The notes under the pieces are model-generated. The model was not told the DNA's origin. It saw nothing but the letters and a program-made list of their open reading frames with translations, and made no database searches. 38,783 bases of DNA from Elainella saxicola E1 (GTDB lineage Bacteria; Cyanobacteriota; Cyanobacteriia; Elainellales; Elainellaceae), in the NCBI GenBank assembly GCA_002796835.1, contig LUGL01000023.1:122656-161438 (forward strand), written 5' to 3'. Position numbers and translations under genes: made by a program. Within the stretch, counting starts at the first letter, position 1, and the number at the start of each line of letters is the position of its first letter. This document shows, in pieces, positions 12,013 through 24,073 of this stretch.

Positions 12013-14487
12013 ATGTTTGAACGCTTCACAGAGAAAGCCATTAAGGTGATCATGCTTGCCCAGGAAGAAGCTCGTCGCCTGGGACATAATTTTGTGGGTA
12101 CAGAGCAGATCCTCCTGGGTCTGATTGGAGAAGGGACCGGCGTCGCCGCCAAAGTTCTGAAATCCATGGGTGTCAACTTGAAAGACGCTCGGATTGAGGT
12201 CGAAAAAATTATTGGGCGGGGTTCTGGTTTCGTTGCTGTTGAAATCCCCTTTACTCCCCGTGCCAAGCGTGTGCTAGAGCTTTCCCTGGAGGAAGCTCGT
12301 CAACTGGGACACAACTACATCGGCACCGAACACTTGCTGTTAGGTTTGATTCGTGAAGGTGAAGGGGTCGCTGCCCGCGTCCTCGAAAACCTTGGAGTTG
12401 ACCTTTCGAAGGTGAGAACTCAGGTGATTCGCATGCTGGGTGAAACAGCGGAAGTTTCTGCCGGGGGCAGTCAAGGTCGCACCAAAACTCCCACACTGGA
12501 TGAATTTGGTTCTAACCTGACCCAGATGGCCGCTGAAGGAAAGCTAGATCCTGTTGTGGGTCGGCAAAAGGAAATCGAGCGAGTCATCCAGATCCTGGGT
12601 CGCCGGACAAAAAACAACCCTGTGCTGATTGGGGAACCTGGCGTTGGCAAAACAGCAATTGCTGAAGGGCTAGCTCAGCGTATCTCTAATGGTGATATTC
12701 CCGATATTTTGGAAGATAAGCGGGTTGTCACACTAGATATTGGTCTACTGGTTGCAGGGACCAAATATCGAGGTGAATTTGAAGAACGCTTGAAAAAGAT
12801 CATGGATGAAATCCGGCAAGCCGGAAACGTCATCCTGGTAATTGATGAGGTTCACACGTTGATTGGTGCGGGTGCTGCTGAAGGGGCGATCGATGCTGCC
12901 AACATTCTTAAGCCTGCCTTGGCTCGAGGCGAACTTCAATGTATTGGTGCCACCACGCTGGATGAATACCGCAAACATATTGAACGGGATGCTGCACTAG
13001 AGCGTCGTTTCCAGCCCGTCATGGTAGGCGAACCAACCGTGACAGAAACCATCGAAATTCTGCATGGTTTGCGCGATCGCTATGAACAGCACCACAAGCT
13101 GAAAATTTCGGACGAAGCACTGGAGGCGGCTGCAAAACTGTCCGATCGCTATATTTCCGATCGTTATCTACCAGACAAAGCGATTGACTTGATCGACGAG
13201 GCGGGTTCTCGCGTCCGTTTGATTAACTCTCAGTTGCCCCCGGCAGCCAAAGAGTTGGATAAAGAGCTGCGTCAGGTCCTGAAAGATAAAGACGATGCAG
13301 TCCGCTCTCAAGATTTTGATCGGGCGGGCGAACTGCGCGATCGAGAAATGGAGATCAAGGCGGAAATTCGTTCGATCGCTCAAAACAAGAAAGCAGAAGG
13401 TTCTGAAGGCTCTGAAGATTCCCCAGTCGTTACCGAGGAAGACATTGCTCAAATCGTCGCCTCTTGGACTGGCATCCCGGTCAACAAGCTAACCGAATCC
13501 GAATCCGAGAAGCTGCTGCACATGGAAGACACCTTGCATCAGCGCATGGTGGGTCAGGATGAAGCCGTTAAAGCGATTTCTCGCGCCATTCGTCGGGCTC
13601 GTGTGGGTCTGAAGAATCCAAATCGACCGATCGCTAGCTTTATCTTCTCCGGTCCAACTGGGGTTGGTAAGACGGAATTGGCGAAATCCTTAGCCGCTTA
13701 CTTCTTCGGTTCTGAAGAAGCCATGATTCGACTTGATATGTCCGAATTCATGGAGCGCCATACGGTTTCCAAGCTGATCGGTTCACCTCCGGGTTATGTG
13801 GGATACAACGAAGGTGGGCAGCTCACAGAAGCAGTACGTCGTCGGCCTTACACGGTAGTGCTGTTCGACGAAATTGAAAAAGCACATCCGGATGTGTTCA
13901 ACATGCTGCTGCAAATCCTGGAAGATGGTCGTTTGACCGATGCCAAGGGCCGCACGGTGGACTTCAAGAACACGTTGCTGATTATGACTTCCAACATCGG
14001 TTCAAAGGTGATCGAAAAAGGTGGCGGCGGTCTGGGCTTCGACTTTGCCGAAAGTGCTGCCGATGCTCAATACACCCGCATCCGATCGCTAGTGAACGAA
14101 GAGCTGAAGCAATACTTCCGCCCAGAGTTCCTTAACCGTCTAGACGAAATCATCGTCTTCCGTCAGCTCAGCAAGGACGAAGTCAAGCACATTGGCGATA
14201 TTCTGCTGAAGGAAGTCTACTCTCGTCTGCAAGAGCAGCACGGTATTACGCTGGAAGTCACCGAGAAGTTCAAGGATCGTCTGGTCGAAGAGGGTTATAA
14301 CCCCAGTTACGGTGCCCGTCCCCTGCGTCGAGCGATTATGCGCTTGCTAGAGGATTCCCTGGCTGAGGAAATTCTCTCAGGCAGAATTAAGACCGGCGAA
14401 ACGGCGATCGTTGATATCGGTGAAGAAGGCCAGGTTCAAGTCCGGGCTGAACAAACCCGTGAATTGTTGCCTCAAGCTGTTGAGTAA
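12013..14487 (+). CDS. clpC: ATP-dependent Clp protease ATPase subunit ClpC
   Basis: ClpC is the Hsp100 unfoldase that feeds substrates to the ClpP/R core, important for protein quality control in cyanobacteria and chloroplasts. The 824-residue protein has two N-terminal Clp_N repeats ([14 protein letters not shown] and [14 protein letters not shown]), a first AAA+ module with Walker [10 protein letters not shown] at about residue 207, a middle UVR domain around residues 430-465 ([20 protein letters not shown]), and a second AAA+ module with GPTGVGKTE at about residue 547. The C-terminal [17 protein letters not shown] is also present. All motifs are intact and the length is normal. It stands as a single gene with its own terminator. 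Confidence 0.98.
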
Positions 14488-14517
14488 CGATCGATAAAAA
14501 ACTTCGGTTCTAATAAG

Positions 14518-14552
14518 CGGTGGTTTCTAGGTTTCTGGAAGCCACCGTTTTT
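14518..14552 (+). terminator. Intrinsic terminator of clpC
   Basis: CGGTGG (14518-14523) pairs with CCACCG (14542-14547), extendable inward by weak pairs, and is followed by TTTTT. It begins 31 bases after the clpC stop. Confidence 0.75.
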
Positions 14553-14573
14553 GCTTTTGGGTGTTGGTTGAAC

Positions 14574-14699
14574 CTAAAACTCCAGTTCCACAAACAAATC
14601 AGTAACCGCTAAAGTAAACCCGGGCAGAACTTCCTCTCCATCTAACTGATCGGAGAATTGCGGTACGATCGATTTCTCACCTGCTTTTGCTTGCTTGAC
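14574..14699 (-). pseudogene. C-terminal remnant resembling Uma2/DUF820 protein
   Basis: On the minus strand an open stretch of about 41 codons reads ...GEKSIVPQFSDQLDGEEV, then LPGFTLAVTDLFVELEF and a stop. The pattern LDGE-VLPGF-L-V-DLF resembles the extreme C-terminus of Uma2 family (DUF820) nuclease-like proteins, which are abundant in cyanobacteria. The frame is closed by a stop at the ureE start, there is no start codon, and the catalytic body is absent. I read it as the tail of a lost gene left at a rearrangement junction between clpC and ureE. The family match is by eye on a short sequence and is weak. Confidence 0.3.
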
Positions 14700-14701
14700 T
14701 T

Positions 14702-15187
14702 ATGCCGCTGCATTTAATCAACCGCCTTCCCCCTGATCTGAACACAACTGTAAGTTTTACACTGGCGCTCACTGCTGAAGAACGGACCCGATCGCGTCAC
14801 TACTTTGAAACTGAGCATGAGGGTGTGTATTTGCAATTGCCACGGGGTACAGTCTTACGGCATGGGGATATATTACAGTCCGATCATCCAGAGCATTTAG
14901 TGCGGGTCATTGCCAAACCGGAACCCGTGATGGTCGTCACGGCTACTACACCGCTTCAGCTTTTGCGAGCGGCCTATCATTTAGGCAACCGACATGTGCC
15001 ATTAGAAGTGACTGCTGATTATTTGCGGCTTTCCCCCGATCCAGTCCTCAAAGCAATGTTAGAGCAATTAGGCGTGCAGGTGACTGAAGCGATTTTACCT
15101 TTTGAGCCAGAAGCAGGAGCATATGGCCAGGACTATACTGCTGGTCATCATGCTAATCATCACTCGGAGCACAGCCATCAACATTAG
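14702..15187 (+). CDS. ureE: Urease accessory protein UreE (nickel chaperone)
   Basis: UreE is a cytoplasmic dimeric metallochaperone that gives Ni2+ to the UreF/G/D-urease complex. The 161-residue sequence has the N-terminal peptide-binding domain (LTAEERTRSRHYFET, LPRGTVLRHGDIL) and the metal-binding domain. That domain holds the conserved AAYHLGNRHVPLEV, whose HLGNRH His is the interfacial nickel ligand, and ends in a His-rich tail (seven of the last 15 residues are His) for storing nickel. ATG 14702 is clear. ureF follows after 109 bases in the same direction. Confidence 0.96.
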   Translation: MPLHLINRLPPDLNTTVSFTLALTAEERTRSRHYFETEHEGVYLQLPRGTVLRHGDILQSDHPEHLVRVIAKPEPVMVVTATTPLQLLRAAYHLGNRHVPLEVTADYLRLSPDPVLKAMLEQLGVQVTEAILPFEPEAGAYGQDYTAGHHANHHSEHSHQH

Positions 15188-15296
15188 TAGATCATTAGTA
15201 TGATGACTTCGATGAAGACAAATATGTCTATAAATTATTTCTCTTTAGTGAACCCATAGTAATTGCAATTGAACCAAGACTGGACACTTTATTTTG

Positions 15297-15968
15297 ATGA
15301 ATGCTCGATCGCTCCTTTCTTTGCTGCAACTGGTTAGTCCGGGACTTCCGGTTGGAGCTTACACCTATTCAGAAGGATTAGAAACTCTGGTTCAACAAGA
15401 ACAACTGAAGACTGCTGCCGATCTCCAGCAATGGTTAATGCAGGAATTACAGTATGGTGGCATTCGAGTTGAAGCGGCAATTTTAGTGCGGGCTTATCAA
15501 GCAGCTCTGCAAGCTGATCCGCATCAATTGTCAATCTGGAATCAATGGCTCTCTGCATTCCGAGAAACCGAAGAAATGCGAGAACAAAGTTGGCAAATGG
15601 GTCGATCGCTGAATCGGCTCCTCAAGGAATTACAGCCCCAGTCTCAATCTTTACTAGCGATCTGTGAGCCTTGCAATTTTGCAGTTGCTTTTGCGGTTGC
15701 GGCGGCTTGTTGGCAGATCGATCGCTCCGAAGCAGTATTGGGCTACTTACAGAGCTGGGCCACGAATTTAATCAATGCCGGGGTGCGGCTGATCCCACTT
15801 GGCCAAACTCAAGGACAGCAGATTTTGCTAAATCTTTCCGATCAGCTAGAAAAGACCTGTGCAGAGGCATTCAGCCTTAGTGATGATCAATTGGAATGCT
15901 GTAGCTGGGGTGTTTCGCTCGCCAGCATGAACCATGAAACTCTATATTCTCGATTATTCCGCAGTTGA
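15297..15968 (+). CDS. ureF: Urease accessory protein UreF
   Basis: UreF is the helical GTPase-activating/fidelity factor that bridges UreD (UreH) and UreG in the urease activation complex. The 223-residue sequence opens with the family pattern LLQLVSPGLPVGAYTYSEGLE, then ETEEMREQSWQMGRSL, and ends LASMNHETLYSRLFRS, which matches the conserved C-terminal tail. ATG 15297 is chosen; an in-frame TTG three bases earlier is ignored. It lies between ureE and ureG with gaps of 109 and 84 bases, so the three accessory genes are likely one transcript. Confidence 0.96.
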   Translation: MNARSLLSLLQLVSPGLPVGAYTYSEGLETLVQQEQLKTAADLQQWLMQELQYGGIRVEAAILVRAYQAALQADPHQLSIWNQWLSAFRETEEMREQSWQMGRSLNRLLKELQPQSQSLLAICEPCNFAVAFAVAAACWQIDRSEAVLGYLQSWATNLINAGVRLIPLGQTQGQQILLNLSDQLEKTCAEAFSLSDDQLECCSWGVSLASMNHETLYSRLFRS

Positions 15969-16052
15969 CCACGAGCTGATCGCTACCGGGTTGGACGTGG
16001 TTTACTTTTACAAGTTTGAAATTTTACAGGTTTGAGATTTAGGGAGAGACCA

Positions 16053-16700
16053 ATGCAACCCTTTCGAGTTGGAATTGCTGGACCTGTCGGTTCTGGAAAA
16101 ACGGCTCTGGTTGATGCGCTATGTAAGGCCATGCGCGATCGCTGCAATATCGCCGTAGTGACAAATGATATTTATACCCAGGAGGATGCTCAATTTCTCG
16201 TCCGCAGTCAGGCATTGGAACGCGATCGGATCGTCGGCGTTGAAACAGGCGGCTGTCCTCACACTGCAATTCGAGAAGATGCCTCGATCAACTTAGTGGC
16301 GATCGAAGAATTAGAACGTAAATTCAATCCACTCGACTTGGTGTTTGTCGAAAGCGGCGGAGACAATTTAGCCTCAACCTTCAGTCCCGAACTCGTAGAT
16401 CTAACGATCTATGTGATTGATGTTGCAGCCGGTGACAAGATCCCGCGTAAAGGTGGACCGGGGATCACAAAATCTGATCTATTGGTGATCAACAAAATTG
16501 ACCTTGCGCCGCTTGTGGGAGCCAGTTTGGAGGTGATGGATCGGGATGCGCGTAAAATGCGAGGCGATCGTCCGTTTGTCTTCACCAATCTTAAAACTCA
16601 ACAAAGCCTAGATGTAGTGATCGATTTTATCGATCTCCATAGAGGTAGTGTCCTACCACCAGAAGTCAGAAAATCTACCTTAAGCAACTTAACAATTTGA
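16053..16700 (+). CDS. ureG: Urease accessory GTPase UreG
   Basis: UreG is the SIMIBI-class GTPase that couples GTP hydrolysis to nickel insertion in urease. The 215-residue sequence starts [19 protein letters not shown] (P-loop), followed by [15 protein letters not shown], the nickel-binding Cys-Pro-His in [21 protein letters not shown], and the base-specificity NKID motif. ATG 16053 is preceded by a purine-rich ribosome-binding site (AGGGAGA) and is better than the upstream TTG 16032. The urtA gene starts 113 bases after the stop, from its own predicted NtcA promoter. Confidence 0.98.
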
Positions 16701-16716
16701 GAAGAAGGTGCATTCT

Positions 16717-16758
16717 GTAGTCTAGGATACATTTTTTGCTCAAACTCAGCCATACCAT
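16717..16758 (+). promoter_or_regulatory. NtcA-activated (class II) promoter of urtA
   Basis: A perfect NtcA box GTA-N8-TAC lies at 16717-16730. A -10 element of the TAN3T form, TACCAT, lies 22 bases further at 16753-16758. This is the canonical spacing of NtcA class II promoters and predicts a start near 16765. NtcA activation of urea transporter genes under nitrogen limitation is established in cyanobacteria. Confidence 0.85.
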
Positions 16759-16788
16759 CGCTTATGGCGAGATTTGACAAGTATTTAG

Positions 16789-16801
16789 CCTCCGCAGGAG
16801 G
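16789..16801 (+). promoter_or_regulatory. Hairpin enclosing the urtA Shine-Dalgarno
   Basis: CCTCC (16789-16793), a three-base loop GCA, then GGAGG (16797-16801) form a perfect 5-bp hairpin. The 3' arm is the ribosome-binding site of urtA, 12 bases from ATG 16814. If formed in the mRNA, it would limit initiation. A second GGAG overlaps (16800-16803), so partial accessibility may remain. Confidence 0.5.
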
Positions 16802-16813
16802 AGTGAACAATCA

Positions 16814-18154
16814 ATGACAAGGCAATTTGGTCGGCGTAAATTTTTACTCTATGGGTCCGCAACATTAGGGACAAGCATTTTGTTGAAGGCTTGTGCCTCC
16901 AGTACGACATCATCTAGCGGCACCGCATCGCCAGCAGCAGAATCGCCAGCAGCAGAGTCTCCGGCTGCAGCAAGTGGAGATACGATTAAGGTCGGTGTCC
17001 TCCACTCTCTCAGCGGTACAATGGCCATCTCTGAGAAGAGTGTGGTAGATTCCACCATGCTTGCGATCGACGAAATCAACAAGGCAGGTGGTGTCGGCGG
17101 TAAGCAAATCGAAGCGGTTCAGGAAGATGGTGCTTCTGATTGGCCTACCTTTGCTGAAAAAGCGAAGAAATTGATTGAAGAAGATAAGGTCGTGGTCATC
17201 TTCGGCTGCTGGACTTCCGCTAGCCGTAAAGCTGTACTGCCGGTGTTTGAAGAAAAGAATCACATGCTGTTCTACCCGGTGCAGTATGAAGGTCAAGAAT
17301 GTTCGAAGAATATCTTCTACACTGGCGCAGCGCCGAACCAGCAGATCGAGCCTTCTGTGGACTGGCTGCTGAAAGAAAAAGGCAAAGACTTCTACCTGGT
17401 GGGTTCGGACTATGTCTTCCCCCGGACTGCGAACACTATCATCAAAGCGCAACTGCAAGCGAAGGGCGGTAAGACCGTCGGTGAAGATTACCTGCCGCTC
17501 GGCAGCACCGAAGTAACTCCCATCATTGCTAAGATCCGTTCTGCGCTCCCCAACGGCGGTGTGATTTACAACACGCTGAACGGCGACAGCAACGTGGCCT
17601 TCTTCAAACAGTTGCAAGGGGCCGGTCTGACTGCGGATAAATATCCAGTCATGTCAGTCAGTATCGCTGAAGAAGAAGTGAAAGCGATCGGTACAGAATT
17701 CCTCAAGGGGCAATATGCGGCATGGAATTACTTCATGACCGTCGATAGCCCTGAGAACAAGAAGTACGTTGAGGCATTTAAAGCTAAGTATGGAGACGAT
17801 CGGGTGACCAATGACCCGATGGAAGCCGGATACATTTCGGTGAACTTGTGGAAGCAAGCGGTTGAGAAAGCAGGCGATCCTGGCACCCCAACCGATCTGG
17901 AAAAAGTTCGGACTGCCGTTTATGGTCAGGAATTCGCGGCTCCAGAAGGTCCGGTGACCATGAAGCCCAACCACCACATCTCCAAGACGGTGCGGATCGG
18001 TGAAGTCCGAGATGATGGTCTGTTTGAGATCGTTTACGAAACTCCCAAGCCGGTGGATCCAATTCCATGGAACCAATATGTGGCAGAAACCAAAGGCTTC
18101 ACCTGCGATTGGACGAAGACAGGCGTCGATAATCCTGGCAAGTTCAAGAGCTAA
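16814..18154 (+). CDS. urtA: Urea ABC transporter substrate-binding protein UrtA
   Basis: UrtA is the periplasmic, lipid-anchored protein that binds urea (and short amides) for the UrtBCDE importer. The 446-residue sequence starts with a twin-arginine type leader (RRKFLL, Arg7-Arg8) and a lipobox LLKAC with Cys27, then a low-complexity linker made of repeated SPAAE units. The type I periplasmic-binding fold follows ([50 protein letters not shown]). The sequence [10 protein letters not shown] is typical of urea binders within the branched-chain amino acid-binding group. The gene has its own NtcA promoter and ends before a strong terminator, suggesting higher expression than urtBCDE. Confidence 0.97.
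16928..16972 (+). repeat. 15-bp tandem repeat in urtA linker
   Basis: Units TCGCCAGCAGCAGAA, TCGCCAGCAGCAGAG and the diverged TCTCCGGCTGCAGCA encode [15 protein letters not shown]. This is the flexible tether between the lipid-modified Cys and the binding domain. Number of units could vary between strains. Confidence 0.8.
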
Positions 18155-18193
18155 GTAGCTTTGGTGTGGATCTGAATCGGTCCAACTAAATTC

Positions 18194-18207
18194 GTATCGA
18201 TGAATAC
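18194..18207 (+). promoter_or_regulatory. Second NtcA box, between urtA and urtB
   Basis: GTA (18194-18196), eight bases, TAC (18205-18207): a perfect GTAN8TAC ending 3 bases before the terminator stem. A class II start would fall near 18242. At the expected -10 distance the sequence is AT-rich (TAATTA at 18232-18237) but is not an exact TAN3T. A chance match is possible because this pattern is expected about once per 4 kb. Confidence 0.5.
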
Positions 18208-18209
18208 TG

Positions 18210-18267
18210 TGGGGACAAAATTGTTGAGAAATAATTAAGTGCTGCTCAATAGTTTGTCCCCATTTTT
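18210..18267 (+). terminator. Intrinsic terminator between urtA and urtB
   Basis: TGGGGACAAA (18210-18219) is the exact complement of TTTGTCCCCA (18253-18262), with further inner pairing TTGAG/CTCAA, and is followed by TTTTT. It starts 56 bases after the urtA stop. It should stop most transcription from the urtA promoter before urtB. Confidence 0.85.
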
Positions 18268-18368
18268 GTGTCTGCCTGCATGTAGCAGATTGAGTAAGGG
18301 TTGAAGCTTAAGTTTTTAGCTGATTCACCAGCAGTTTGAGTCTCTCACGGCAGCTGAAGGAGCTTCTC

Positions 18369-19529
18369 TTGTTTACTGGAATCTTAGATGGAATTTTTAA
18401 TGGGCTGAGCGTTGGCTCGGTTTTGTTATTAGCAGCGCTGGGGCTGGCGATCGTCTTTGGCTTGATGGGCGTGATCAATATGGCTCATGGCGAACTGATG
18501 ATGCTAGGCGCTTACACTACTTTTGTCGTGCAAAACGGCTTCAAGCAACTGGGCGCACCCTGGACTCAGTTTTATATTTTCTTTGCAGTCATTGCAGCGT
18601 TTCTAGTAGCCGCACTGGTGGGTCTTGCCTTAGAAAGGGGAGTGATTCGCTATCTCTACGGACGACCTCTGGAAACTTTGCTGGCAACTTGGGGCGTCAG
18701 CCTAATTTTGCAGCAGTTCGTTCGGAGTGTGAATTGGGTCCTTGTGATTGGGCTGATCTTATTCTGCCTGCTGTTCTTTGGCGGCTTGTGGATCGTCAAA
18801 CGGCGGCCTGACTTTGAGCGCATTCGCAATTGGGCGATCGCCATTCTGCTTCCCCTTTCGGCAGCTATTTCGTTTGCAGTTGGTTCAGTGCTCAGCAAAA
18901 CCTATAAGCTGGCCGTGACCAAGCCCTGGTTCGGGGCCCAAAACGTGGATGTGACTGCGCCCAAATGGCTGTTGGGAGGATTGCCGATCGGCAATTATCA
19001 GTTGCCCTATACCCGGATGTTCATCATGGTGTTAACTGTGCTGTGTGTTCTGGGAATTTACTTCTTCCTTAATAAAACGCCCTGGGGCTTACGTATCCGT
19101 TCTGTCACGCAGAATCGCAACATGAGTGCCTGTCTGGGGATTCCGACCCAAAAAGTGGATGCCCTCACTTTTGCCCTGGGTTCAGGATTGGCAGGCATTG
19201 CCGGATGTGCAGTTAGCCTCCTGGGTTCAGTTGGTCCTAACACCGGACAAAACTATATCGTCAATACCTTCATGGTGGTCGTTGTGGGCGGGGTTGGCAA
19301 ACTGGTCGGCACGATCGTGGGAGCAATGGCGATCGGCATCACAGACTACATTGTGGGGACTGGCATCCTGGCCCAGCTATTTGCGCCTATTCCACCCCTG
19401 GCTAATTTCTTCACCTTCTTTGCCACAACCAGTATGGCAAAGGTAATGGTTTTCTTCCTGATTGTGGTCTTCCTGCAATTTCGACCTGCCGGTCTCTTCC
19501 CTCAAAAGGGCCGCACCGTCGATGCCTAG
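18369..19529 (+). CDS. urtB: Urea ABC transporter permease UrtB
   Basis: UrtB is one of the two inner-membrane permease subunits, of the LivH type. The sequence holds multiple hydrophobic helices, the family pattern LAIVFGLMGVINMAHGELMMLGAY near the start, RGVIRYLYGRPLETLLATWG, and the EAA-like loop TPWGLRIRSVTQNRNMSACLGI. I chose TTG 18369 because AAGGAG (18357-18362) lies six bases before it and the resulting MFTGILDGIFNGLSVGS matches the usual start. A TTG at 18336 would add 11 residues without a ribosome-binding site. No ATG is available in this region. It heads urtBCDE, 214 bases after urtA and beyond the terminator. Confidence 0.93.
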   Translation: MFTGILDGIFNGLSVGSVLLLAALGLAIVFGLMGVINMAHGELMMLGAYTTFVVQNGFKQLGAPWTQFYIFFAVIAAFLVAALVGLALERGVIRYLYGRPLETLLATWGVSLILQQFVRSVNWVLVIGLILFCLLFFGGLWIVKRRPDFERIRNWAIAILLPLSAAISFAVGSVLSKTYKLAVTKPWFGAQNVDVTAPKWLLGGLPIGNYQLPYTRMFIMVLTVLCVLGIYFFLNKTPWGLRIRSVTQNRNMSACLGIPTQKVDALTFALGSGLAGIAGCAVSLLGSVGPNTGQNYIVNTFMVVVVGGVGKLVGTIVGAMAIGITDYIVGTGILAQLFAPIPPLANFFTFFATTSMAKVMVFFLIVVFLQFRPAGLFPQKGRTVDA

Positions 19530-19598
19530 ACTTCAAAGCTCAAAGCTCAATCCAACCGTTCAAACTTGTAACTCATTCTTGTTCTTAAATGGAGTGAA

Positions 19599-20765
19599 AT
19601 GGCAGCAGAGATAGCCGTTGAGCGCCGAATTGATAGCTCAAAACGCCGATTGATCGTTGAAGCAGCGATTGTGTTGGCAATAGCCCTTTTCTTCATCCTG
19701 GTCGTGCCGTTGTTGCTGTCCGACTTCCGGCTGAATTTGATGGGTCGCTTTCTGGCCCTGGCGATTGTCGCATTAGGGATTGATTTGATCTGGGGATTCA
19801 CTGGATTGCTGAGCCTGGGGCATGGAATTTTCTTTACCCTGGGTGGCTATGCGATCGCCATGTATATCAAGCTCCAGATTCCAGAATCTGCGAGTTCTCG
19901 CCTGCCAGAGTTCATGTCGCTGTATGGGGTAACGGAACTGCCGTGGTTCTGGAAGCCATTCTATTCTTTTCCGTTTACTGCGTTGGCTGTTGTCTTAATT
20001 CCAGGCATTTTGGCGGGTTTGCTGGGCTATGTGATTTTCCGCAACCGGATTCGAGGCGTTTATTTCTCGATTCTGACCCAGGCTGCCACAATTATTTTCT
20101 TCAACTTCTTTAACGGTCAGCAGAAGCTGTTCAATGGCACCAATGGGTTAACCGACTTCCAGACAATCTTTGGTGCGAAGGTCAATTCACCCGGCACTCA
20201 ATATACCTTTTACATCCTCACCATCATTGTGCTGGTATTCGCCTATGCCCTCTGCCGCTGGTTGACGAGTGGAAGATTTGGACGATTGCTGGTGGCCATT
20301 CGAGACGATGAAAGCCGGGTACGATTTACGGGCTATGATCCGACGGGCTTTAAGGTGCTGGTATTTGCCATTTCTGGGGCATTGGCTGGCCTCTCTGGAG
20401 CCTTTTTCACCCTGCAAACTGGCATCATCTCGCCCAACTCAATGAACATTGCCTTTTCGATCGAAATGGTGATTTGGGTTGCGGTCGGCGGACGGGCTTC
20501 ACTGGTCGGAGCCATTTTGGGAGCGCTGGTCGTTAACTTTGCGAAAAGTTTGCTGAGCGAAAAGTTCCCGGATATCTGGTTGTTCTTCCAGGGTGGTTTA
20601 TTCCTGTTAGTGGTAATGTTCTTGCCCGATGGCATTATTGGCTGGCTGCGGACTCGCGGGAAGGATCTGTTCCGTGCGGCAACGGGCAGAAAACGCATCA
20701 TGACCTATCCGAGTTTAGAAGAGGATCCTGAGGTTGAGTATGAGCGAAAAAATCTTGGAGATTGA
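19599..20765 (+). CDS. urtC: Urea ABC transporter permease UrtC
   Basis: UrtC is the second permease subunit, of the LivM type. It is 388 residues with about ten hydrophobic helices. Family markers are IDLIWGFTGLLSLGHGIFFTLGGYAI, the FNGTNGLTDF segment after GQQKL, and the cytoplasmic loop SGRFGRLLVAIRDDESRVRFTGYD, followed by SGALAGLSGAFFTLQTGIISP. The start ATG 19599 has GGAG eight to five bases upstream. The 3' end overlaps urtD by 26 bases, showing tight coupling of permease and ATPase subunits. Confidence 0.97.
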   Translation: MAAEIAVERRIDSSKRRLIVEAAIVLAIALFFILVVPLLLSDFRLNLMGRFLALAIVALGIDLIWGFTGLLSLGHGIFFTLGGYAIAMYIKLQIPESASSRLPEFMSLYGVTELPWFWKPFYSFPFTALAVVLIPGILAGLLGYVIFRNRIRGVYFSILTQAATIIFFNFFNGQQKLFNGTNGLTDFQTIFGAKVNSPGTQYTFYILTIIVLVFAYALCRWLTSGRFGRLLVAIRDDESRVRFTGYDPTGFKVLVFAISGALAGLSGAFFTLQTGIISPNSMNIAFSIEMVIWVAVGGRASLVGAILGALVVNFAKSLLSEKFPDIWLFFQGGLFLLVVMFLPDGIIGWLRTRGKDLFRAATGRKRIMTYPSLEEDPEVEYERKNLGD

Positions 20766-21531
20766 GAACTTAACGGTAAGTTTTGACGGCTTCAAAGCCC
20801 TCAACAATCTCAACTTCAGCTTGAATACAGGCGAGCTGCGCGTCATCATCGGTCCAAATGGAGCTGGAAAGACGACCTTTCTAGATATCATTACCGGCAA
20901 AACGAAGCCCACTGAAGGGAATGTTCGGTTTAAAGGCAAAAATCTCCGCCCTTACTCAGAACATCAAATTGCTCGCATGGGGGTCGGACGGAAGTTTCAG
21001 ACGCCGAGAGTTTATCTAAATTTGACTCCAAGAGAGAATTTGGAACTTGCCTGTAACCGATTCAAAAATGTTTTCTCGACGCTATTCCGAAAGCCACCTA
21101 CTGCCGAACGCAGAACGATCGGAGGATTATTGGAAACGATCGGTCTAGCTCGCAAAGCGGATATGAAAGCCAATTTGCTGTCGCATGGCGAAAAGCAGTG
21201 GCTGGAAATTGGTATGTTGGTGGCCCAGTCTCCGGATTTGCTGCTGGTGGATGAACCGGTGGCAGGTCTGACGGACGAAGAAACGGAATTGACGGGAGAA
21301 TTATTAGTTTCTCTATCGAAAAGCCACTCAATTATTGTGATCGAACATGACATGGAATTTGTGCGGCAGATCGCCCAGGGACAGGTCACTGTGCTGCACC
21401 AGGGTTCTGTGCTCTGTGAAGGACATTTCGATGAAGTGCAGTCTGATCCACGCGTGATTGAAGTCTATCTGGGCCACGAAGTCGATCATGATCAGCCGAT
21501 CGATCTGCAACAGGCTGCTTTGCAAGAGTAG
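20740..21531 (+). CDS. urtD: Urea ABC transporter ATP-binding protein UrtD
   Basis: UrtD is one of two ATPase subunits (LivG type). The 263-residue sequence has Walker A GPNGAGKTTFLDIITG, a Q-loop region RKFQTPRVYLNLTPREN, the ABC signature LSHGEKQWLEI (an LSHGEKQ variant usual in this subfamily), Walker B LLLVDEPVAGLTDEE and the H-loop IVIEHDMEFV. ATG 20740 lies within the end of urtC; an upstream in-frame TTG at 20734 would add two residues. urtE follows after 56 bases. Confidence 0.97.
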   Translation: MSEKILEIENLTVSFDGFKALNNLNFSLNTGELRVIIGPNGAGKTTFLDIITGKTKPTEGNVRFKGKNLRPYSEHQIARMGVGRKFQTPRVYLNLTPRENLELACNRFKNVFSTLFRKPPTAERRTIGGLLETIGLARKADMKANLLSHGEKQWLEIGMLVAQSPDLLLVDEPVAGLTDEETELTGELLVSLSKSHSIIVIEHDMEFVRQIAQGQVTVLHQGSVLCEGHFDEVQSDPRVIEVYLGHEVDHDQPIDLQQAALQE

Positions 21532-21587
21532 TCGGTTTGAGCGCTAAGCGCTGAGTTTTGAATTTTGAGTTGGAATTGGTGTAAATC

Positions 21588-22340
21588 ATGACACAAGCTG
21601 CGCCGAGCTTTGACACTGCTGTAACTGACTATCCCCTCATGCTGCAAGTGTCTGGGCTAAATGTCTACTATGGTGAGAGCCACATTCTGCGAAACGTAGA
21701 CTTGAATGTACCCAAAGGGGAAATGGTTTGCTTGATTGGTCGGAATGGCGTGGGTAAAACCACACTGCTGAAGACAATTATGGGGTTGTTACGACCACGC
21801 AGTGGCAATATTTACCTGGAAAGGCAATCGATTCTCACCAAATCTCCAGATCAGAGGGCGCGGGCAGGCATTGGCTATGTGCCGCAGGGACGGGAAGTGA
21901 TTCCTCGTTTAACAGTGAAGGAAAATTTGCTGCTGGGCTATGAAGCTAGAGCCGATCGTCCTAAAAATCGCCAAGAGATTCCCGAAGAAATCTTTGAGTT
22001 ATTCCCGGTCTTAAAAGATATGCTGTGGCGAATGGGCGGTGACCTCAGCGGTGGTCAGCAGCAGCAATTAGCGATCGCCCGTGCTATTATGGGCCAGCCC
22101 CAGTTGCTCGTGCTAGATGAACCGACAGAAGGAATTCAGCCTTCGATTATTCTGGACATTGAATCAGCGGTGCGGCGCATTGTAGCCACGACTGGCATTT
22201 CAGTCTTGCTGGTAGAACAGCACCTGCATTTTGTGCGGCAGGCCGATCGCTATTACGCTATGCAAAAGGGTGGCATTGTGGCTTCTGGTCCCACCAGCGA
22301 ACTTAGCAATGAGGTGATTCAGCGCTTTCTGGCGGTGTAA
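21588..22340 (+). CDS. urtE: Urea ABC transporter ATP-binding protein UrtE
   Basis: UrtE is the second ATPase (LivF type). It has 250 residues with Walker A GRNGVGKTTLLKTIMGLL, the GIGYVPQGREVIPRLTVKENL stretch, the signature LSGGQQQQLAIARAI, Walker B LLVLDEPTEGIQPSI and the H-loop VEQHLHFV. The short N-terminal leader MTQAAPSFDTAVTDYP precedes the conserved LNVYYGESHIL. It closes the operon and is followed by a strong terminator at 22457. Confidence 0.97.
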   Translation: MTQAAPSFDTAVTDYPLMLQVSGLNVYYGESHILRNVDLNVPKGEMVCLIGRNGVGKTTLLKTIMGLLRPRSGNIYLERQSILTKSPDQRARAGIGYVPQGREVIPRLTVKENLLLGYEARADRPKNRQEIPEEIFELFPVLKDMLWRMGGDLSGGQQQQLAIARAIMGQPQLLVLDEPTEGIQPSIILDIESAVRRIVATTGISVLLVEQHLHFVRQADRYYAMQKGGIVASGPTSELSNEVIQRFLAV

Positions 22341-22456
22341 TGGTCTTTTCGAAATATCTCTTCAAAGAGTTCGTGATCTTAGAGAGGCCGCGAGCGAGAC
22401 GCTTGAACTATATTGGCCGAACATTATTGGTTGGACATTTCCGTTTTGGAACATGA

Positions 22457-22483
22457 GGGCAGTTTGCGAACTGCCCCTTTTTT
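22457..22483 (+). terminator. Intrinsic terminator of the urt operon
   Basis: GGGCAGTT (22457-22464) pairs perfectly with AACTGCCC (22469-22476) around a TGCG loop, followed by C and six T. It ends the plus-strand operon just before the converging antiporter gene (stop at 22493). Confidence 0.92.
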
Positions 22484-22492
22484 ATATGAGCC

Positions 22493-24073
22493 TCAAGTTG
22501 TGGCTTCTTCCTGCTCCAGATGGTGATGAATCGGATCCAGGATGCCCGGTAGTTCGTGATCTAGCCGACCCGATCGAACAAATTCCGTGTAGGTAGCTGC
22601 TTCGATCGCAAACAAATCACGCTGGAGTTGTTCGGCTCCGACTTCTAGCAAGTCTGGATCTTGCTGACAGAGTTTGCTGCTTTCGTCTTGCAGAAGGGCC
22701 AATTGCTGCCGCACCTCGGCTTCTTTGGCCTGATGAGTAGCTGGTTCGATGCCGAATTTAGAAGCGGGCTGTTGCAAATAGTCCAGTACCCGACTCAATG
22801 CGGCCTGCCGAGAAATCACTTCGAGATAGCGATCGCGCAGCGGACTAAATTCGATGAGTTGCAGCTTCTCCAGAATCGATTTTGCGGTTGCCCCCTGAAG
22901 TAAAGTCGTCAGGAAAACAACGCCAAAGACAGCTACCAACACCGCCCGTCGTTCTGGCAATTCGTCGGGCACACTTAGGGCTAGCGCCAGGGAAACCCCA
23001 CCCCGCAAACCACTCCACCAGAGCATCGTCTGAGTTGGCAGATCAATATCGGATTGAGTCAACTGGTTACTTAACCCAGTTAGGCCAAAAATGACGATCG
23101 CCCGCATCACCAGGACAGTTCCAAAGGCGAGGGCAACCAATGTCAAATCCTGGCTATCCATGCCCAAACGAAACTGTGCCCCGATCAGCAAAAACAGAAT
23201 GGAATTGGTGAAGAAGGCCACAAACTCCCAGAACTCACTCACCGCAATGCGAGTGCGGGGATTCATGCCAATGCGGGACCCGAAATTTCCTAAAATCAAG
23301 CCTGCGGTCACGGTACCGATTACGCCAGAGCCGCCTAATTTTTCTGCGATCAGATAGGCAGAATAGGCTGTGACTAACGTTAAGGATTGCTCCACCAAAG
23401 GCAAATCAAATCGCTGGGTTAAATAAGACACGCCGAATCCCAGCAGTGCGCCAACCAGCAATCCAACACCAACAACCGTAATAAAGTTCACCAGCAAATT
23501 CTGCGGGTCAAAGGTATCGGTGCCCATGGCAATGCCCACCACGAGGCTGAAAGCGACCACCGCAGTTCCGTCATTGAACATGCTTTCCCCTTCCACCAGG
23601 GCCTTGAGGCGGGGCGGCGCACCCAGTTCTCGCAGTAAAGCGCTAACTGAAACCGGATCGGTAGCGGCCAAGCAGGCTCCGATCAGCAGCGCCACCGGTA
23701 AACTAATACCAGTCCATTGGGCGATGGGCAGAGCAATGCCAAGAATGGTGATGCCAACACCAATCGTGACATAGAGGGCGATCGGTCCCAGATCCCGTTT
23801 CAAATCGTCCCAGCTTAAATTCCAGGTGGCTTCAAACAGCAAAGGCGGCAAGAAAATCCATAAAATCAGCTCAGGAGAAGGCGTAAAAAAGCGAACATCC
23901 AGCAGGGCCAGCCCCATGCCAGTAATTACCAGCATCAGGGTATAGGGAACCTGCCGTAACCAGGGCACGATCTGCGAGATAGTAGCCACGCCCAACGCGG
24001 CTGAAATAATCAGCAAAAACTGCTGCAGGTTTTCTTCGATCGCAAGATGTCCGGCGGTAGTACTTAATAGCAT
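22493..24073 (-). CDS. CPA1-family Na+/H+ antiporter
   Basis: This 526-residue inner-membrane protein has about twelve hydrophobic helices and a cytoplasmic helical tail of about 120 residues. CPA1 features are PPLLFEATWNLSWDDLKRD, the ion-binding AATDPVSVSALLRELG, and EGESMFNDGTAVV, whose Asn-Asp pair is the essential motif of NhaP/NHE-type exchangers. It exchanges Na+ (possibly Li+ or K+) for protons in salt and pH homeostasis. The tail (LLEVGAEQLQRDLFAIEAATYTEF) has a helical, regulatory look. It stands 86 bases upstream of the RND pump stop on the same strand, and cotranscription downstream of the pump is possible. Confidence 0.93.
   Translation of the reverse strand: MLLSTTAGHLAIEENLQQFLLIISAALGVATISQIVPWLRQVPYTLMLVITGMGLALLDVRFFTPSPELILWIFLPPLLFEATWNLSWDDLKRDLGPIALYVTIGVGITILGIALPIAQWTGISLPVALLIGACLAATDPVSVSALLRELGAPPRLKALVEGESMFNDGTAVVAFSLVVGIAMGTDTFDPQNLLVNFITVVGVGLLVGALLGFGVSYLTQRFDLPLVEQSLTLVTAYSAYLIAEKLGGSGVIGTVTAGLILGNFGSRIGMNPRTRIAVSEFWEFVAFFTNSILFLLIGAQFRLGMDSQDLTLVALAFGTVLVMRAIVIFGLTGLSNQLTQSDIDLPTQTMLWWSGLRGGVSLALALSVPDELPERRAVLVAVFGVVFLTTLLQGATAKSILEKLQLIEFSPLRDRYLEVISRQAALSRVLDYLQQPASKFGIEPATHQAKEAEVRQQLALLQDESSKLCQQDPDLLEVGAEQLQRDLFAIEAATYTEFVRSGRLDHELPGILDPIHHHLEQEEATT

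Follow-up and report, generated by a model that had tools for sequence, protein, structure and literature searches.

We find that the gap between urtA and urtB in cyanobacterial urea transporter operons widely contains a hairpin that is conserved in position and oriented with the operon, and that strict NtcA boxes (GTAN8TAC) occur in the same gap at chance level. The gap that we analyzed most closely lies in a 38,783-nt stretch of Elainella saxicola E1 DNA (the window), where a perfect GTAN8TAC stands in front of a strong hairpin. We consider it probable, at roughly three chances in four, that this hairpin acts as an intercistronic element or terminator that leaves urtA mRNA in excess, and that the box is either a coincidental match or a weak site specific to this lineage, giving no second transcript. 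The original prediction was that box and hairpin form a terminator together with a second promoter, one that escapes termination and supplies urtBCDE; our comparison across cyanobacteria supports the terminator half of this proposal and not the promoter half.

Results

The urt operon of the window

A profile search of the 8.70-Mb genome identified NtcA with 390.6 bits, which exceeds the curated cut-off, and NCBIfam profiles placed ureE and ureG upstream of urtA, followed by urtB, urtC, urtD and urtE, with all five urt genes scoring above their cut-offs (Table 1). The urtB score was obtained with a longer frame starting at 18336; the TTG start of urtB is preceded by AAGGAG (18357-18362), and the gap between urtA and urtB measures 214 nt. 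The PSSM score of the NtcA box in front of urtA is 29.7, and the median over 116 boxes in this upstream position is 27.4. In the interval between ureE and ureG, an open frame of 224 aa (15294-15968, forward strand) gave no NCBIfam match at E 0.001 and could, judged by its position, be ureF.

Table 1. Coordinates of the urt genes and of the elements in and around the urtA-urtB gap.
Feature	Position in window	Strand	Basis or remark
NtcA box of the urtA promoter, GTAGTCTAGGATAC	16717..16730	+	GTAN8TAC; TACCAT 22 nt downstream at 16753-16758
urtA, urea ABC transporter substrate-binding protein	16814..18154	+	TIGR03407, 609 bits
GTATCGATGAATAC, strict GTAN8TAC match in the urtA-urtB gap	18194..18207	.	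sequence
Terminator-like hairpin	stem 18209-18263, T5 tail 18263-18267	+	fold and sequence
Candidate -10, AATAAT, in the hairpin's apical part	18230..18235	+	lacks the first T of TAN3T
urtB, urea ABC permease, TTG start	18369..19529	+	TIGR03409, 374 bits
urtC	19599-20765	+	TIGR03408, above cut-off
urtD	20734-21531	+	TIGR03411, above cut-off
urtE	21588-22340	+	TIGR03410, above cut-off

A terminator-like hairpin between urtA and urtB

The core arms of the hairpin, TGGGGACAAA (18210-18219) and TTTGTCCCCA (18253-18262), match exactly, as originally described, and are extended by TTGAG/CTCAA to a stem of 21 predicted pairs. The predicted fold reaches -24.4 kcal/mol over 71 nt (z = -4.9), and none of 200 shuffled sequences was as stable. 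A run of five T bases lies directly 3' of the right arm on the operon strand, and the hairpin-plus-T-run scan that we applied to urtA-urtB gaps calls this hairpin as a terminator. A stock terminator scan of positions 14000-24000, which permits loops of 3-8, leaves it out. Matches from the stock scans of this region are at background, with 8 promoter-like matches (9.7 in shuffles) and 13 terminator-like matches (10.9 in shuffles), and for this reason we set aside a sigma-70-like match located inside the hairpin (TTGAGA-18-AATAGT; 18224-18253). No Rfam family reached its gathering score in the same region.

We also considered and rejected a dispersed repeat, as the 79-nt segment comprising box and hairpin is present in full only once in the genome. 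Its best partial match spans 23 nt (E = 0.002; L200), and we treat this match as chance because its surroundings, by eye, resemble part of a protein-coding gene on the opposite strand.

Hairpins recur in the urtA-urtB gaps of cyanobacteria

We searched 291 genomes for UrtA and obtained a match in 250. Eighty loci were hand-picked among the score-sorted matches listed (3 from the window's family and 77 from its class), and another set comprised the best 80 of 540. Among 190 loci, 178 contain adjacent urtA and urtB genes, and in 12 no adjacent pair was found in the stretch concerned. Removal of 6 identical duplicates, merging only identical junctions, left 172 loci, and leaving out 7 loci titled Paenibacillus, Cohnella or Chloroflexi gave the final 165. 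One locus from a record titled as a Bifidobacterium breve MAG (L170) was kept because its gap resembles Synechococcus gaps; its Synechococcus-like urtA-urtB junction suggests that the title or the binning of this record is wrong. Folding was applied to the 160 gaps of 60 nt or more, and the terminator scan to the 161 gaps of 40 nt or more. The window's family is represented by 29 gaps, the window included, out of 36 genomes, with 7 dropped for a weak or missing UrtA match or a contig end.

Folding of the first 120 nt after urtA gave z below -2 in 117 of 160 gaps and below -3 in 86 of 160, with a median of -3.0 and 43 of the 160 gaps short of -2. The controls reached z below -2 in 16 of 162 segments upstream of urtA, 8 of 165 urtA ends and 25 of 165 urtB starts. 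Of 161 gaps, 86 have a hairpin followed by a T-run on the operon strand and 31 have one on the opposite strand, compared to 14.5 in shuffles and 11 of 161 in a urtA coding control; because the loci are often related (for example, eleven of the gaps are from Prochlorococcus), these counts are not counts of independent events. The sequences of the gap hairpins are by eye unrelated among lineages, Prochlorococcus included, a pattern to be expected under selection on position and structure and not on sequence.

A considerable number of gaps (75 of 161) fail the terminator criterion, and within the window's family 14 of 29 gaps pass and 15 fail. Since about half of the family fails, the hairpin in these genomes may act in RNA processing or stability instead of termination, and the gap hairpin may serve termination in some lineages and 3'-end protection or processing in others. 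A narrower version of our preferred reading, which overlaps it, is that the hairpin mainly protects 3' ends or directs RNase processing, so that full-length RNA is made and its downstream part decays faster. The failure of so many gaps despite extreme folding in most of them is consistent with this proposal, as is the precedent of differential decay at malE, recounted in the introduction of PMC5927463. The bias of T-runs to the operon strand instead favors termination in many lineages, and the hairpin of the window itself ends in T5; overall, we regard a mainly protective or processing role as possible but on balance unlikely.

In the window's own genome, 20 genes matched the NMT1_2 family of binding proteins, and we looked at six of these loci. 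Hairpins were seen by eye after the gene at the two best-scoring loci (L212 and L213, on C196 and C88; z = -1.4 and -3.1), whose genes we take to be nrtA-like from their size and neighbors. At the other four loci, no hairpin after the gene was indicated by z (1.8, -0.2, -0.8 and 1.0). Six loci are too few for a general claim on hairpins after binding-protein genes.

NtcA boxes in the gap occur at chance level

Across cyanobacteria, GTAN8TAC is present within 400 nt upstream of urtA at 109 of 161 loci, while shuffles contain 7.5 on average and 13 at maximum. In the urtA-urtB gap, the motif is present at only 5 of 165 loci, compared to 3.8 in shuffles, 36 of 100 of which reach 5. None of the gaps of the 28 other family members, drawn from 35 other family genomes, contains a strict box. 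One of the five gap boxes belongs to a distant cyanobacterium (L106), where a strict GTAN8TAC at offset 65 after urtA is, by eye, closely followed by a T-run hairpin; this is the only other pairing of box and hairpin that we noticed among the five.

The motif occurs 724 times in the 8.70-Mb genome, or about once per 12 kb, which is a third of the frequency given in the original prediction (once per 4 kb). At this density, a strict box in a 214-nt gap is a ~1.8% event, and a chance of about 2% per gap makes the box unremarkable over the whole 38-kb window. The window contains five such motifs, one of which is the urtA promoter box, versus 2.2 in shuffles, and 8 of 100 shuffles reach five.

A PSSM scan of 160 gaps returned 8 sites scoring at least 14, the window's site included, versus 0.45 in shuffles. 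We did not accept the mid-scoring sites as promoters because several of them lie in other hairpins within a TTACAGA-like stretch recognized by eye, and two of the eight are from related genomes (L037 and L038); some of these sites could be real weak sites. A TACAGA-like stretch is, by eye, common to the gap hairpins of L049, L055, L057, L074, L109, L114 and L117. It falls partly within GGATTTTGG...CCAAAATCC stems, lifts NtcA-model scores above those of shuffles, and could represent a dispersed repeat.

The nearest relative retains the hairpin and a degenerate box

The urtA gene of the nearest relative (L010) shares 80.5% DNA identity with that of the window, and 53.6% at third positions. The NtcA box and -10 block of its urtA promoter are strongly kept, with a site score of 32.0. 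Its gap contains a hairpin homologous to that of the window, with a predicted energy of -20.6 kcal/mol (z = -4.7): 11 of the window's 21 pairs are unchanged, 4 are kept with a one-sided and 2 with a two-sided change, and 4 are broken. By the 120-nt measure, the L010 gap shows a z of only -0.9, because the homologous hairpin starts ~75 nt past the stop codon and is 54 nt long, so that the 120-nt limit cuts it. No hairpin in the L010 gap passes the terminator criterion, and the most stable hairpin of this gap is a different one, further down.

The corresponding box in the L010 gap is GTTGCTTGCGATAC, with GTT for GTA. Box and -10 together score -0.8, which is background, while the urtA site of the same genome scores 32.0. 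Aligned with the window, L010 matches 5 of 6 positions in the box arms, 2 of 8 in the core, 16 of 22 in the spacer and 6 of 6 in the -10. In the original prediction, loss of the box from close relatives that keep the terminator would count against the second promoter; in L010 the hairpin persists and the box is degenerate, and together with the lack of strict boxes in the other family gaps this largely refutes that promoter. The refutation is incomplete, because L010 keeps GTN10AC, the 22-nt spacing and AATAAT.

The gap box resembles a urtA-type promoter poorly

AATAAT starts 22 nt after the gap box, which would put a class II start near 18242, inside the hairpin, in agreement with the geometry that had been proposed. 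Among the five hexamers at 20-24 nt after the box, none is a TAN3T; AATAAT is the best of them, and it lacks the first T. Predicted RNA from 18242 onward, which lacks the 5' arm, has no unusual fold (z = +1.2, with 176 of 200 shuffles folding at least as well), again as anticipated.

We scored box and -10 together with a model trained on 116 urtA-upstream boxes of other cyanobacteria, with the window and L010 left out. The gap site scores 15.1, a value that only 11 of these 116 boxes fail to exceed, in a comparison where the training sites are scored in-sample and, coming from related urtA promoters, favor ancestry as well as function. Random strict boxes score 2.6 on average (sd 5.8) and reach 15.1 with P = 0.019, so that the gap box beats 98% of them, and none of 19 boxes located inside urtA genes reaches this value. 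The base after TAC is T in the gap box and A in 105 of the 116 upstream boxes, and TAN3T is present in 84 of the 116. In a stricter model trained only on these TAN3T boxes, the gap site scores 7.8, below all 84 training sites. By these sequence models, the gap box is better than a typical chance box and poor as a urtA-type promoter. GTATCGATGAATAC is probably not a functional promoter element.

These scores bear on the proposal that NtcA bound at 18194-18207 activates a class II promoter inside the hairpin, giving urtBCDE transcripts that pass the terminator. If true, one short sequence would both cap read-through from urtA and supply urtBCDE. The score of 15.1 among random strict and urtA-internal boxes speaks for this proposal, as do the 22-nt spacing, which is the commonest in urtA promoters (50 of 84 boxes with TAN3T), the lack of an unusual fold in RNA from 18242, which misses the 5' arm, and the presence of NtcA in the genome. 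In Anabaena, a ChIP-seq study reported that strong conservation within NtcA sites falls on GTN10AC, and that class II sites also occur at internal starts (PMC3898017); together with the GTN10AC, spacing and AATAAT retained in L010, this makes a weak shared site possible. The low rank among upstream urtA boxes, the T after TAC, the incomplete -10 and the result of the stricter model all speak against it. So do the lack of strict boxes in the gaps of the 28 other family members, the chance-level frequency of boxes in gaps overall, and the background score of the L010 gap site beside the intact urtA site of that genome; moreover, the AATAAT kept in L010 is part of a longer stretch that is conserved throughout, spacer included. 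We therefore think an NtcA-activated promoter at this position mechanically sound but unlikely. We give equally little credence to its evolutionary variant, in which an NtcA promoter would have evolved inside the terminator hairpin in this lineage and be shared in weaker form by L010, with transcripts that start in the apical part, lack the 5' arm and get past the terminator under nitrogen limitation.

NtcA on 18194-18207 might alternatively block polymerase that comes in from urtA and, as such a roadblock, boost pausing or termination when nitrogen is limiting. The box ends 2 nt short of the left arm, an arrangement that would suit a roadblock, and the box of L106 also shortly precedes a T-run hairpin, but a roadblock would depend on the same poorly conserved box as the promoter, and we judge it very improbable.

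Discussion

We favor partial termination or 3'-end protection at the urtA-urtB hairpin, with one NtcA-dependent start. A single NtcA-type promoter in front of urtA would drive transcripts into the junction, where most would stop at the hairpin or be trimmed back to it and a minority would read through into urtBCDE, leaving more urtA RNA than urtBCDE RNA. With transcripts mostly ending at the hairpin, the urea-binding protein would probably be in excess over the permease and ATPases. If this is correct, cyanobacteria would possess a simple, sequence-encoded way for the urea-binding protein to outnumber the permease, in which structure and position are retained while the sequence turns over. Our data also carry a warning for motif-based annotation: a perfect intergenic GTAN8TAC is weak evidence of NtcA control, because the box is far above chance upstream of urtA and not in the gap just downstream.

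In Prochlorococcus MED4, a published study reports that internal starts increase under nitrogen deprivation and that reads over urtA-E gather at the urtA start; no urtB start is named in the passages concerned (PMC5607370). Among the literature matches listed, no title or abstract opening concerns a urtB start or a urtA-urtB terminator. NtcA class II promoters are described as carrying GTAN8TAC near -41.5 and a TAN3T -10, with urtA as a named example (PMC3898017). The promoter in front of urtA in the window matches this canonical arrangement, with its box followed 22 nt on by TACCAT. In contrast, the box in the gap has neither a TAN3T nor an A following TAC, and it is not conserved.

The closest functional parallel lies outside cyanobacteria, in the malE-malFG operon of E. 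coli. After malE, an intercistronic hairpin (REP) without a T-run brings about differential decay of the transcript. RNA for the binding protein builds up while the part encoding the permease is broken down, as described in the introduction of PMC5927463. Like malE-malFG, the urt operon encodes an ABC importer in which the binding-protein part would be favored. Unlike in malE-malFG, where the effect is one of stability, the urtA-urtB hairpin of the window is followed by a T5 tail in its sequence.
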